Positions 1,972-7,070 of a DNA stretch of 7,070 bases are shown one piece after another; the first letter of the stretch is position 1; the number at the start of each line of letters is the position of its first letter. The DNA comes from an uncultured Pseudomonadota bacterium. Lineage in GTDB: Bacteria > Desulfobacterota_B > Binatia > UBA9968. The position numbers were made by a program, and so were the translations under genes. The stretch is taken from positions 1 to 7,070 of the forward strand of contig CAMLCX010000249.1 in assembly GCA_946478635.1 (NCBI GenBank). The letters are read 5' to 3'. The notes under the pieces are model-generated. The model did no database searches, was not told where the DNA came from, and worked only from the letters and a program-made list of their open reading frames with translations.

Positions 1972-2565
1972 TTATTTGATCTTTGCGAGCTCCCGGCGGA
2001 TCTGTTCGTTGGATGGCCTTTTGGTGTAATCGACTTCGATAAACTTCCAGCGCACGCTCCCCTTCGGGTCGATGATGAAAGTCGAGGGATGCGGCCAGCC
2101 TCGGCCATCCGGATTAAAAACACCGTAGCGGTCGATCACCTTGTGGTCTTTGTCTTCGAGCAGCGGAAAGTCGAACTCGCCGTCGAAGCGCTTGCGCAGC
2201 ATCTCGCCGAACTTTTTCGACTCCTCGCGGGTGTCGGTGCTGACCGCCAGGATCTGGATTTTTTCTTTTTGCTGCTTGGTCAATAAACTTTTCAGCTTCC
2301 CGAGCTGTTCTACGCAGAAGGGTCACCAGTAGCCGCGGTAGAAAACCAAGATCACGGTCTTCTTGTTACGAAAATCCGATAGGGTGAGCGCTTTTCCGCC
2401 GCTGTCTTCCAGGGTGAAATCCGGCGCGGGCTGGCCGACTTTCATTCGATTCAAATCCGTCGGCGCGAGATCGGCGCCGCCGTCCTTCGGTCCGAGTTGC
2501 GCACCGAGGGGAGCGCTGATCATGAAAATAGCGAAAGTGACTGCTAACGTTCGAGTGAGCGGCAC
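1972..2565 (-). CDS. Exported AhpC/TSA-type redoxin, probable UxxC selenoprotein (TGA read as Sec81)
   Basis: Read from a GTG at 2565 to the TAA at 1972-1974 with the in-frame TGA at 2323-2325 taken as selenocysteine, this gives 197 residues. Residues 1-22 resemble a Sec signal peptide (basic start, hydrophobic LAVTFAIFMISAPLG core, likely cut after GA), so the protein should act in the periplasm. The mature part is a thioredoxin-fold redoxin: KVGQPAPDFTLED (42-54), TVILVFYRGYW (70-80), then U81-P-F-C84, then AVSTDTREESKKF and the typical PSTFIIDPKG beta-strand block. Peroxiredoxin-like relatives carry R-G-x-W-C-P-F-C here, so the TGA replaces exactly the first redox cysteine. Frame and homology continue undisturbed on both sides. 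The start is supported by the strong TAAGGAGA ribosome site six bases upstream. It probably reduces peroxides or disulfides; the substrate is unknown. A nonsense mutation or sequencing error (TGC/TGT to TGA) is the alternative. Confidence 0.82.
2293..2325 (-). promoter_or_regulatory. Candidate bacterial SECIS element
   Basis: In the mRNA, 15 bases after the UGA comes a perfect 5-bp stem CAGCU/AGCUG (plus-strand positions 2303-2307 and 2293-2297) closing a five-base loop CGGGA (2298-2302). The loop starts 20 bases after the UGA and has G at its second position. Bacterial SECIS elements lie within the coding region just after the UGA, with a small G-containing apical loop roughly 16-37 bases away, so placement and loop fit. 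The stem is short, and the lower part could pair in a competing way (UUCU/AGAA around GCGU), so the exact fold is uncertain. Confidence 0.55.
2323..2325 (-). other. In-frame UGA, probable selenocysteine codon (Sec81)
   Basis: The plus strand reads TCA, so the mRNA reads UGA. It follows the codons for F-Y-R-G-Y-W and precedes those for P-F-C, turning the usual C-x-x-C of this redoxin family into U-x-x-C. There is no other stop in this frame between the GTG at 2565 and the TAA at 1972. Decoding would need SelB, SelC and SelA from elsewhere in the genome. Confidence 0.8.
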
Positions 2566-2571
2566 AGGAAA

Positions 2572-2579
2572 TCTCCTTA
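2572..2579 (-). promoter_or_regulatory. Strong ribosome binding site for the redoxin gene
   Basis: The minus strand reads TAAGGAGA followed by six bases (TTTCCT) and the GTG at 2565-2563. This is a near-perfect Shine-Dalgarno sequence at ideal spacing, the best in the window. It fixes the start at GTG 2565 just before a signal peptide, and argues that the gene is actively translated and not decaying. It lies in the 37-base gap after the SDR stop codon. Confidence 0.85.
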
Positions 2580-3454: not shown

Positions 3455-4363
3455 TCAAATCGGTTTGGAGGCTTCGAGCGCCTCGGGGAGATCCGGATAA
3501 CGGAATTTAAATCCAAGTTTCTCCGCTGCCGCCGGAACCACGCGCTGGCCGGTTAGAAGCATCTCCGCCATATCACCCATAGTGAGTCTGAGCAGAAATG
3601 CCGGCACCCGCGCCCAGGATGGGCGACGAATGGCTTTGCCGAGAGCCTTGCCGAATTCGTTATTTTGTACCGGATTCGGCGCTGTCGCATTAAATGGCCC
3701 CTGGGCAAGCGGGTTGTCGATCAGCAGTAAAATCAAACGGATCAAATCTTCGAGCTGGATCCAGGACATCCACTGCTTGCCGGAGCCCAGTGGGCCGCCC
3801 AAGAAAAATTTGAAGGGCTCAGCGATCTTCGCCAAGGCTCCGCCGTCCGGCCCGAGCACGATGCCGGTGCGCAGACAAACGACGCGCATGCCCAAATCCG
3901 CAGCTTTTTGGGCCTCAGCCTCCCACGCCTTGCAGAGCCGCCCCAGAAAATCATCCCCCGGCGGGGTTTCCTCTGTTACGATATCGTCGCCGCGGGGACC
4001 GTAGTAGCCAATGGCCGATGCGTTGAGGAGAAATTTCGGTCTTTGTTTGGCCTTGGCGCAGGCCTGCACGAGGCATTGAGTCGCGTCGATGCGGCTTTTT
4101 TCAATGCGGCGGCGTTGTGTGCGGCTCCATTTTTTTTCCGCGATGGGTTCGCCGGCCAGGTTGATCACGCCGTCGACGCCGTCTAAGGCAGCGTCCCAGT
4201 CTCGCAGAGTTCCCGGGGTCCAGTGCAGCCAGCGCTTGGTGCCGGTATTGGCGTCGCGCGGCGAACCGCGCGTCAGCAATGTGAGCGCATGGCCGTGCTC
4301 CAAAAGCGCGGCGCATAACGGCATGCCGATAAAACCCGATGCCCCGGTAACCACCAACCTCAT
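3455..4363 (-). CDS. TIGR01777-family epimerase-like NAD(P)-binding oxidoreductase (YfcH/SDR39U1-like)
   Basis: The 302-residue product is an atypical extended SDR. Visible motifs are the N-terminal cofactor loop GASGFIG (7-13), NLAGEPIAEKKW (68-79), SRIDAT (90-95), SAIGYYG (116-122), LRTGIVLGPDGGAL (165-177), GSGKQWMSWIQLEDL (193-207), FNATAPNPV (224-232) and EMLLTGQRVVP (267-277). This order is diagnostic of the TIGR01777 family (YfcH in E. coli, SDR39U1 in animals), whose physiological substrate is not firmly known. The length is normal. ATG 4363 is preferred, with AGAAAGG about ten bases upstream. A GTG at 4369 would add only two residues but leaves just four bases of spacing. It is the first gene of the minus-strand operon and is divergent from the ketosynthase. 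Its stop lies 30 bases from the SDR start. Confidence 0.92.
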   Translation of the reverse strand: MRLVVTGASGFIGMPLCAALLEHGHALTLLTRGSPRDANTGTKRWLHWTPGTLRDWDAALDGVDGVINLAGEPIAEKKWSRTQRRRIEKSRIDATQCLVQACAKAKQRPKFLLNASAIGYYGPRGDDIVTEETPPGDDFLGRLCKAWEAEAQKAADLGMRVVCLRTGIVLGPDGGALAKIAEPFKFFLGGPLGSGKQWMSWIQLEDLIRLILLLIDNPLAQGPFNATAPNPVQNNEFGKALGKAIRRPSWARVPAFLLRLTMGDMAEMLLTGQRVVPAAAEKLGFKFRYPDLPEALEASKPI

Positions 4364-4388
4364 CGCCACGCTGCCTTTCTGCTATGCC

Positions 4389-4451: not shown

Positions 4452-5732
4452 ATGAAACCGCTTAGAACCTATCCGCCGCCGCGTCGAGTCGTGGTGACCG
4501 GCATGGGTGCTGTGGCGCCCAACGGCGTCGGCAGCGATGCCTATTGCGCGGCATTGCGTGGCGGCCTAAGCGGCGTCGGCTTGATCTCACTCTTCGAAAC
4601 CGACGGACTGGAATGCCGGATCGCCGCTCAAGTGAAAAACTTTGCCGCGGAGGATTTTTTAAGTCCTCAAGAGATACGCCGGGTCGGTCGCGCCGTGCCG
4701 TTGGTCCTGGCGGCGACAGCAGAGGCGCTGGCCCGCGCCCGCGTTTGCGTGCAGCGTCAGAGCACACAAGAGAAACAATCCTGGGGAGTCGTCATCGGCA
4801 GCGGCGGCGGCACGCCCGACTTCATGGAAGAACAGTACCGCCGATACTTCTCCGACCAGCTGCGCCGGGTGAGCGCTTATAATGTTTCGAGCTCGACGCC
4901 GGGCAGCCTGTCGAGCGAAATCTCCCTGCGTTTTGGCTTTCGCGGTCCGAGCCATCTTATCTCCACGGGTTGCACGAGCTCCACGGATGCGCTGGGTTAT
5001 GCCTTTAACATGATCCGCTTCGGACTCGCCGATCATTTGGTCAGCGGCGGCGCGGACGCGACGATCACGCCGGGCATCATGCAGGGGTTTTCTGTCATGG
5101 GCGTGGTATCCTCGTCGCGTAATCACGATCCGCAGCGCGCCTCCCGGCCCTTCGATCGGACGCGCGACGGCTTTGTGCTCGGCGAGGGCGCCTGGATATT
5201 GATCTTGGAAGAGCGGGAAATGGCGCTGGCGCGCGGCGCGAAGGTCTACGGCGAAATCCTCGGCTACGGCTCGACCTGCGACGCGCATCATCGCGTGCGT
5301 CTCGATCCCAGCGGCGAGGAACCCGCGCGGGCCATGAGCCTGGCGATTGAGGATGCCGCCGTCGCCAAAGACGAGATCGGCTACGTAGCGCTGCACGGCA
5401 CCTCGACACTATTAAACGACAGGACGGAAACGCTCGCGGCCAAAACCTGCTTCGGCGCGCGCGCTCGCGACGTTCCCATGAGTTCGATCAAGTCGATGAT
5501 CGGCCATCCGCAAGGCGCGTCGGGCGTTGCCGGTGTCGTCGCGACGATGCTGGCGATGAATCATGGGTTTTTGCCGCCGACCATCAATTACGCCGAAGCC
5601 GACCCGGAATGCGATCTCAATTATATTCCCAATCACAGCATCGATCGCGACACCGAGGTGGCGCTTTGCAACTGCATCGGCTTTGGCTCGAAGAACTCGG
5701 CGTTGGTGGTCGCGCGCGGGGGAGCGGTATGA
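4452..5732 (+). CDS. FabF-like beta-ketoacyl synthase (KAS II type)
   Basis: The 426-residue product is a thiolase-fold condensing enzyme of the FabF/type II ketosynthase family, which elongates ACP-bound acyl chains with malonyl-ACP. The Cys-His-His triad is intact: Cys174 in STGCTSSTDALG, His315 in LHGTSTLLND and His352 in KSMIGHPQGASG. The N-terminal RRVVVTGMGAVAPNGVG, the acyl-site region RPFDRTRDGFVLGEGA (232-247) and the C-terminal GFGSKNSALVV (410-420) also fit. Several motifs depart from housekeeping FabF: HGTSTPLND has become HGTSTLLND, GHLLGAAG has become GHPQGASG, and GFGGTN has become GFGSKN. This suggests a specialised synthase rather than the core fatty acid enzyme. A GAAGAG six to eleven bases before the ATG could serve as ribosome site. 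It starts the plus-strand operon and overlaps the methyltransferase by four bases. Confidence 0.92.
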   Translation: MKPLRTYPPPRRVVVTGMGAVAPNGVGSDAYCAALRGGLSGVGLISLFETDGLECRIAAQVKNFAAEDFLSPQEIRRVGRAVPLVLAATAEALARARVCVQRQSTQEKQSWGVVIGSGGGTPDFMEEQYRRYFSDQLRRVSAYNVSSSTPGSLSSEISLRFGFRGPSHLISTGCTSSTDALGYAFNMIRFGLADHLVSGGADATITPGIMQGFSVMGVVSSSRNHDPQRASRPFDRTRDGFVLGEGAWILILEEREMALARGAKVYGEILGYGSTCDAHHRVRLDPSGEEPARAMSLAIEDAAVAKDEIGYVALHGTSTLLNDRTETLAAKTCFGARARDVPMSSIKSMIGHPQGASGVAGVVATMLAMNHGFLPPTINYAEADPECDLNYIPNHSIDRDTEVALCNCIGFGSKNSALVVARGGAV

Positions 5733-6427
5733 ACCGGAGCGCGGAGCTTGAAATGATGGACCTGCCGGGGCAACCGCGGGAATTGTTGCTTGACGACCTG
5801 CGAAACCTACGCTCGCTCAATCGTTATCTGGGCTGTTATAGAAACGTGCTGCGCGCGTTAACCGGCGCGCTCCGCGGCCAGAGCAAACGCGAGTTCACGC
5901 TCCTCGATGTCGGCACCGGCAATGCCGATATTCCCACAACCATTGTCAGTTGGGCGCGGCGCCGGAAACTCAGCGCCCGGCTCAGCTGCCTTGAACGAGA
6001 CGCGGTCACCGTCGGCGCAGCCGCCGATCAGACGCGCGCGCACCCTGAAATCAAAATCGTGCGCGGCGACGCGCTGAGACCGCCCTTTCGGCGGGCGTCT
6101 TTCGATTTCGTTCTGGCATCGCAACTGCTGCACCATTTTCCCGACGAGCAGATCGTCGATTTGCTGCGAACCTGGGCGGCGCTTGCCCGGCGCGCTGTGA
6201 TCATAAGCGACCTGGTGCGTCACCCTCTCGCCTATCATGGGATACGCCTGCTGACCAAGGGTTTCACCCGCAATATCATGACCCGCACCGACGCGCCGCT
6301 CTCGGTCCGGCGGGCGCTGACGATCGAGGAATGGCGCGCTGTGTTGCGCGAAGCAGACATCGGCCGATTCACCGTCGAGCGGGCGCTGCCTTTTCGCATG
6401 CGCGCGCTCATTTGGCTCGAGAGCTGA
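5729..6427 (+). CDS. Class I SAM-dependent methyltransferase
   Basis: The 232-residue product has a Rossmann-type methyltransferase domain: motif I LLDVGTGNADIP (58-69), an acidic residue at the end of strand 2 (Glu89 in CLERD), the adenine-side Asp114 in VRGDALRPPF, and FDFVLASQLLHHF (126-138) for motif IV and its following helix. Residues 1-50 form a helical lead-in (LLLDDLRNLRSLNRYL) like that of methyltransferases found beside polyketide and FAD-oxidoreductase genes, which may cap the substrate. The acceptor, O- or C-methyl, cannot be told. ATG 5729 is chosen because it forms an ATGA overlap with the ketosynthase stop and has GGGGGAG just upstream. An in-frame ATG at 5609 would add 40 residues read from within the ketosynthase gene with no family similarity. 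Two bases separate its stop from the next start, so all three genes should be translated together. Confidence 0.88.
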   Translation: MNRSAELEMMDLPGQPRELLLDDLRNLRSLNRYLGCYRNVLRALTGALRGQSKREFTLLDVGTGNADIPTTIVSWARRRKLSARLSCLERDAVTVGAAADQTRAHPEIKIVRGDALRPPFRRASFDFVLASQLLHHFPDEQIVDLLRTWAALARRAVIISDLVRHPLAYHGIRLLTKGFTRNIMTRTDAPLSVRRALTIEEWRAVLREADIGRFTVERALPFRMRALIWLES

Positions 6428-6429
6428 TC

Positions 6430-7070
6430 ATGGGGAACGTGGATGTCGCGATCATCGGCGCCGGTCCCGCCGGCTCGGCCACGGCCATCGGCCTGGCGCG
6501 GCGCGGTTACCAAGTCGCTTTGATCGACAAAAGATCATTCCCGCGGGAAAAACTTTGCGGCGATTTTGTCAATCCGATCAATTGGGCCGTGCTTCAGGAG
6601 CTGGGCGTGGAAGATCGCGTTCTTGCCGCGCCGCACGGCGAAGTGAACAGTTTTCGCCTGACAACTTCCTCCGGTCGGGAAGCTGAAGCCGCTTTTACAT
6701 CGCGCGAGGGTCAACGTTCGATGGGGCTTGGGCTGCGGCGCGCCGAGCTCGATCGACTGCTTGTAGAAAGAGCGGCGGAGTTGGGCGTAGCGATCAGTCT
6801 GGGAGGTCGGATCGAGAAAATTTTAAGAACGGGAAAAGGCTGGCAATTGGAGTCAAAAGGAAAAAACTGGCAAGCGAGATTTCTGGTCGGCGCCGACGGA
6901 CGCAACTCCTGGGTGGCGCGGCAGCTCGGCCTAGATCGAACCGGCGTCATGCACGGACGGGCGATCGGATTTCAATGCCGTTTGCGCTGTCCGGGCGCGG
7001 CCCGCGGCAAAATCGAGATCCATCTTTTCCCCGGTGGTTACGCCGGGGTCGTCGGTGTCGGCGATGGGAC
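6430..7070 (+). CDS. FAD-dependent oxidoreductase, geranylgeranyl-reductase/PHBH-like (partial, 3' cut)
   Basis: The frame starts at ATG 6430, two bases after the methyltransferase stop, and stays open to the window end, giving 213 residues. The N-terminus has the FAD-binding loop VAIIGAGPAGSATA (6-19), an acidic end of the second strand (LIDKRS), the KLCGDF segment (41-46) typical of the geranylgeranyl reductase and related flavin family, GLRRAELD (101-108) and the second FAD motif VGADGRNSWVAR (153-164). The protein is a p-hydroxybenzoate-hydroxylase-fold flavoenzyme. It could hydroxylate an aromatic or quinone ring, reduce isoprenoid double bonds, or act in a related redox step; the C-terminal substrate region lies outside the window. 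Coupling to a ketosynthase and a methyltransferase suggests it tailors the same product. Confidence 0.88.
   Translation, partial: MGNVDVAIIGAGPAGSATAIGLARRGYQVALIDKRSFPREKLCGDFVNPINWAVLQELGVEDRVLAAPHGEVNSFRLTTSSGREAEAAFTSREGQRSMGLGLRRAELDRLLVERAAELGVAISLGGRIEKILRTGKGWQLESKGKNWQARFLVGADGRNSWVARQLGLDRTGVMHGRAIGFQCRLRCPGAARGKIEIHLFPGGYAGVVGVGDG

Follow-up and report, generated by a model that had tools for sequence, protein, structure and literature searches.

The window, i.e., the whole 7,070-nucleotide stretch of contig CAMLCX010000249.1 analyzed here, carries on its minus strand (positions 1972..2565) a gene for an AhpC/TSA-type redoxin whose reading frame contains an in-frame TGA. Comparison with related genes strongly supports that this gene encodes a selenoprotein (probability roughly 0.93), in which SelB-delivered selenocysteine (Sec) would be inserted at the UGA under the direction of an mRNA hairpin to yield a single redoxin of 197 residues. 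The frame extends from a GTG start (2565-2563) through the TGA (2325-2323) to a TAA stop (1974-1972), and its read-through product comprises 80 residues, Sec at position 81 and another 116 residues, an assignment based on translation, Pfam, orthologs and a fold model. A first-pass annotation of this DNA had proposed that a TGA splits one redoxin frame at the first residue of a C-P-F-C-type motif, that frame and family similarity continue for 116 residues and that an excellent Shine-Dalgarno sequence is present, and each of these features was found, on the minus strand, which that annotation had not named. The TGA lies at the first position of UxxC in F-Y-R-G-Y-W-U-P-F-C, where the comparison of TGA and Cys forms suggests that it is read as Sec (2323..2325, minus strand), and AAGGAG precedes the start codon (2573..2578, minus strand). 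The Pfam domain AhpC-TSA (PF00578) matches residues 43-173 with 117.6 bits (cut-off 26) and spans the TGA; PF08534 scored lower (81.1 bits). With PF00578 above its gathering score and a predicted peroxiredoxin fold, the product belongs to the AhpC/TSA superfamily. The open reading frame list under translation table 11 contains a 103-residue product from a TTG start at 2283 and a separate upstream piece ending at 2323, which is the split that the first-pass annotation had expected from gene callers.

The TGA codon is strictly conserved among close relatives. In the class to which the genome of locus L001 belongs, 19 orthologs with at least 52% identity were identified in 18 of 148 genomes, each with one TGA. 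This class is probably Binatia, as judged from a protein record (P0191) with 80% identity to the FabF of the window. TGA occupied codon 81 in all 20 copies (the window and the 19 class copies) and in five more distant loci, and the 20 copies had no other in-frame stop within the aligned part; a copy in G132 without the UGA region (L100) and two fragments (G134:C302 and G134:C293) stand outside this set. As the identical codon occurs in independent genomes, a private sequencing error is very unlikely. Random stops elsewhere in close homologs, which the first-pass annotation would have taken to speak against its proposal, were not seen in these relatives, and the shared codon is not due to chance. 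Across nine pairs compared, pN was 0.04-0.19 and pS 0.46-0.86 on both sides of the TGA; the redoxin is under purifying selection both before and after it. In a tree of 50 redoxins the window falls within a group of 20 that are all Sec forms (support 80/86, with the bootstrap not settled); the distribution of Sec and Cys requires seven changes. Within the phylum of G149, which holds locus L002, matches at E <= 1e-30 occurred in six of 119 genomes, three with one TGA and three without a stop. Near-identical Sec redoxin genes were also observed in two metagenome-assembled genomes named Gammaproteobacteria and Gemmatimonadetes (L003, L004), reflecting either transfer or binning error.

A protein search with the redoxin gave 213 matches at E <= 0.001, and the following counts refer to the 120 matches listed. 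The motif FYRG.[WF]x..C was present in 41 of these, with Cys at the Sec position in 25, Trp in 15 (14 JGI records and the ENA record P0052) and Ser in one. The remaining 79 lacked the motif, and 68 of them were 109-115 residues long, as if started just past the UGA; in the record P0033 the active-site region is missing. We infer that the Trp residues result from gene callers translating TGA under genetic code 4. A wider genome scan, of which the best 80 loci were kept, found TGA at codon 81 in six, TGC or TGT in 74 and TGG in none; since its single pattern demanded either W or C in the Sec position, TGA orthologs are under-sampled in this set, and it was the search within the class of L001 that recovered them. 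In homologs, the in-frame TGA is aligned with Cys. The misannotation that the first-pass annotation had suspected is borne out by the 68 short records without the motif and the 15 with Trp; many relatives in public databases are truncated or misread, probably because of the same codon.

Downstream of the UGA, by about 18-33 nucleotides, lies a candidate bacterial Sec insertion sequence (bSECIS) hairpin, CAGCUCGGGAAGCUG (2293..2307, minus strand; nucleotides 19-33 when the U of UGA is taken as the first). At codons 87-91, synonymous sites were nearly invariant among the 20 copies: CAG in 20/20, CTC in 20/20, CTG in 19/20 and AAG in 12/12 copies with Lys. CTC accounts for only 27% of the Leu codons of these copies, yet is found at the hairpin codon in all of them. 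Among 153 overlapping windows of codons, the hairpin stretch ranked highest in conservation, with 88% identical codons compared to a mean of 47% (sd 8%) elsewhere. Its form in the class is CAGCUC-GGN-(A/G)AGCUG, and in distant loci pairs are retained with different letters (CAGUU/AACUG in L005, GCAACU/AGUUGC in L008). Both-sided changes occurred in three of the six pairs, which was equaled by none of 500 shuffles, and the hairpin was part of the minimum-energy fold of nucleotides 13-42 in 25/25 sequences. Synonymous constraint, consistent folding and pair-keeping changes together indicate that the hairpin is a bacterial SECIS. Folds downstream of the codon were stronger with TGA than with Cys, averaging -9.07 in 36 TGA loci versus -3.86 in 75 Cys loci (rank test, p = 3e-11, the rows not being independent), and a stem of at least 5 bp was also present in 22 of the 75 Cys loci.

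The machinery for Sec insertion accompanies the gene in most related genomes. Among the 18 class genomes with an ortholog, SelB was identified in 15, SelA in 16, SelD in 15 and tRNA-Sec in 14, and at least one of the four in 17; the absence of Sec machinery, which the first-pass annotation would have taken to speak against its proposal, was examined in relatives' genomes and was not the rule there. Across all 148 genomes of the class, SelB exceeded its cut-off in 119 and SelA in 123, and tRNA-Sec was found in 107 under strict filters. In the first scan, all six genomes with TGA had SelB above the cut-off, and five had tRNA-Sec; for this tRNA, scores of about 50 bits count as weak, as a Cys-form genome without SelB above the cut-off reached 48.6, and one of these five (G155) scored 51. 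On G127:C70 and other contigs like it, selD, selB and selA adjoin, and the SelD gene itself contains one TGA in 16/16 copies above the cut-off, from 15 genomes.

A control search with PF00578 in 12 genomes gave 195 matches, 150 of which were listed and inspected by hand for stops. Seven of these genomes have a TGA ortholog, and in-frame TGA was present in 53 of their 104 listed matches, one of which has two TGA and a TAA; none of the 46 listed matches from the five genomes without SelA, SelB, SelD and tRNA-Sec contained a stop. The seven genomes (G109, G123, G127, G130, G134, G139 and G140) each had 4-11 listed TGA-containing AhpC/TSA matches, including the ortholog.

The in-frame TGA could be explained in other ways. 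A single in-frame stop is the typical appearance of a pseudogene or a sequencing error, and the G132 copy without the active-site region would fit a decaying gene. However, a lesion is hardly credible when the same codon recurs in 20/20 copies as well as in loci that bear the names of other phyla, when both sides of the TGA are under purifying selection with no other stop, and when the hairpin is constrained at synonymous sites. Equally far-fetched is decoding of TGA as Trp, by genetic code 4 or a nonsense suppressor: the 15 of 41 motif-bearing listed records with Trp would be accounted for, but TGA terminates the glk, yfcH, fabF and methyltransferase genes of the window, the best 80 loci have TGC, TGT or TGA and never TGG, and TGA redoxins were listed in seven of the 12 genomes, six with Sec machinery, and in none of the five without. 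Gene callers predict that the locus yields a peptide of 80 residues and, from an internal start, a distinct C-terminal protein of about 103-113 residues, and the 68 listed homologs of 109-115 residues without the motif would match this. Such a split is very improbable as well, because starting internally would cost the protein its motif and the first half of the AhpC-TSA domain, codon 85, at which many relatives have a usable start, is GTA in the window, and purifying selection acts on the upstream half as on a redoxin. All three explanations were rejected on the conserved TGA without other stops, the selection, the TGA-terminated neighbors and the lack of TGG in the 80 loci.

Several observations weigh against a selenoprotein. 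The double changes of the hairpin pairs are carried by only three cells, the sixth pair fails to form in 14 of the 24 rows, and a control slid by -1 reached a higher covariation score than the hairpin (0.114 versus 0.066). The fold of the window's sequence taken alone is not significant (z +0.71 for 51 nucleotides, z -1.05 for 30 nucleotides). One relative (L100) lacks the UGA and active-site region, and in one record (P0004) Ser takes the place of Sec. In addition, the machinery counts come from relatives' genomes and not from the window's own, and in G139, which has the TGA ortholog and six listed TGA redoxins, SelA, SelB, SelD and tRNA-Sec were all not found; this genome counts against a link between machinery and TGA unless, as is possible, its assembly has gaps.

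In the preferred reading as a selenoprotein, SelB would deliver Sec-tRNA(Sec) at the UGA codon (2325-2323), and the hairpin about 18-33 nucleotides downstream in the coding mRNA would direct SelB such that one protein of 197 residues is made. The product carries a probable signal peptide (residues 1-22; 2500..2565, minus strand), with a putative cleavage site between PLGA and Q, as suggested by signal-peptide-like N-termini of orthologs and by the structure model, in which the first 30 residues have low confidence. The redoxin, with its predicted peroxiredoxin fold, is thus probably exported to the cell envelope. There, Sec81 may attack a peroxide or disulfide, Cys84 may resolve it by way of a selenenylsulfide, and a thiol reductant of the envelope would then restore the enzyme.

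The roles of the two active-site residues could also be reversed, with Cys84 as the peroxidatic and Sec81 as the resolving residue of a selenoprotein peroxidase. For the structure model, Sec was replaced by Cys and an alignment of 35 rows was used, including some with Trp or without the motif. Its 50 best structural matches by Z were peroxiredoxins or thiol peroxidases; the absence of ResA from these top 50 carries no weight, as lower ranks lie outside this list. The typical peroxiredoxin active site is PxxxT/SxxC. The redoxin has RGYWUPFC instead, and in three alignments with solved peroxiredoxins Arg takes the Pro site, Sec81 aligns with Thr/Ser and C84 with the peroxidatic Cys; Sec is therefore not at the usual peroxidatic place. 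In this respect the first-pass annotation, which had placed Sec at the catalytic Cys, is corrected. On the other hand, Sec is usually the attacking residue in selenoproteins, and WUPFC is similar to the WCxxC site of ResA/TlpA, in which the first Cys is the attacking one. ResA structures were also among the Foldseek matches, and the ResA model of NCBIfam scored slightly above the peroxiredoxin models, all of them below the cut-off. A peroxidatic Cys84 is therefore a tentative option, and attack by Sec81 is favored.

The gene neighborhood of the redoxin is ordinary. Pfam and NCBIfam identified glucokinase, 6-phosphogluconolactonase and proteins of the SDR and TIGR01777 families, together with a FabF-like synthase, a methyltransferase and the beginning of a geranylgeranyl-reductase-like gene. 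The SDR-family oxidoreductase gene (PF00106; 2603..3424, minus strand) is located directly upstream with a gap of 37 nucleotides, and the TIGR01777 (YfcH) family gene (355.5 bits) occupies 3455..4369 on the same strand. Among 20 loci inspected for genes near the redoxin, the SDR gene was found in eight, the TIGR01777 gene in eight, both in five and at least one in 11, with some loci stopping too early to tell. The FabF-like synthase, methyltransferase and geranylgeranyl-reductase-like FAD genes (4452-7070) recur together in several relatives and perhaps form a lipid or polyketide pathway.

As a wider lead, the whole class, whose members are mostly uncultured, may be rich in selenoproteins, about half of the listed AhpC/TSA matches in the seven genomes having an in-frame UGA. 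A paralog in G070 (L110) has TGC at the Sec site and retains a hairpin, GCTGCAG-GAT-CTGCAGC; in this genome SelA, SelB and SelD over the cut-off and tRNA-Sec were not found, and L110 therefore likely represents a SECIS fossil after reversion from Sec to Cys. We consider it rather likely that the class is an unrecognized selenoprotein-rich lineage whose redoxins radiated as selenoproteins, and that some members lost the machinery, reverted to Cys and kept fossil SECIS elements such as that of L110. In the literature searched, which was covered in part, nothing linked Binatia/Binatota to selenoprotein use, the single match having the term just in the title of a cited reference, but a groundwater survey (Deng et al. 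2026) may do so. The redoxin subfamily is represented in the searched database mainly by C-terminal fragments or by records with an improbable active-site residue. The envelope redox chemistry and selenium demand of this subfamily would escape annotation. Within this one class, genomes that have the machinery and genomes that lack it allow Sec gain and loss to be studied directly.

The redoxin itself belongs to a known UxxC kind. NCBIfam 20.0 has no model above its cut-off for it or for eight relatives among the matches at E <= 1e-10. As far as the portions of the sources covered here extend, PF00578 Prx-like thiol:disulfide oxidoreductases with UxxC or UxxU and PF08534 selenoproteins with UxxC have been cataloged, and a 2008 ocean survey included 225 UxxC sequences of 'Prx-like 1' (pfam00578) (PMC13188914, PMC9312934, PMC2398784). 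The broad kind is therefore already known, as the first-pass annotation had stated. Compared by description only, Prx-like UxxC selenoproteins or 'Prx-like 1' share PF00578 and UxxC with the redoxin, which here also shows a putative signal peptide and a SECIS of its own clade. The Redoxin-family selenoprotein (PF08534, UxxC), also compared by description, has the same motif, and PF08534 matches here, but PF00578 scores higher. Similarity to the TxxU Sec-peroxiredoxin PrxU (NF040737) is limited to AhpC/TSA homology (57 bits, cut-off 270), and according to the available description its Sec lies three residues later. The SelL-related redox protein model (NF040769) reaches 60.1 bits over residues 45-123, below its cut-off of 120. 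Finally, the Cys proteins AhpE, Bcp/PrxQ and ResA, with solved structures, have Thr/Ser or Cys where the redoxin has Sec.
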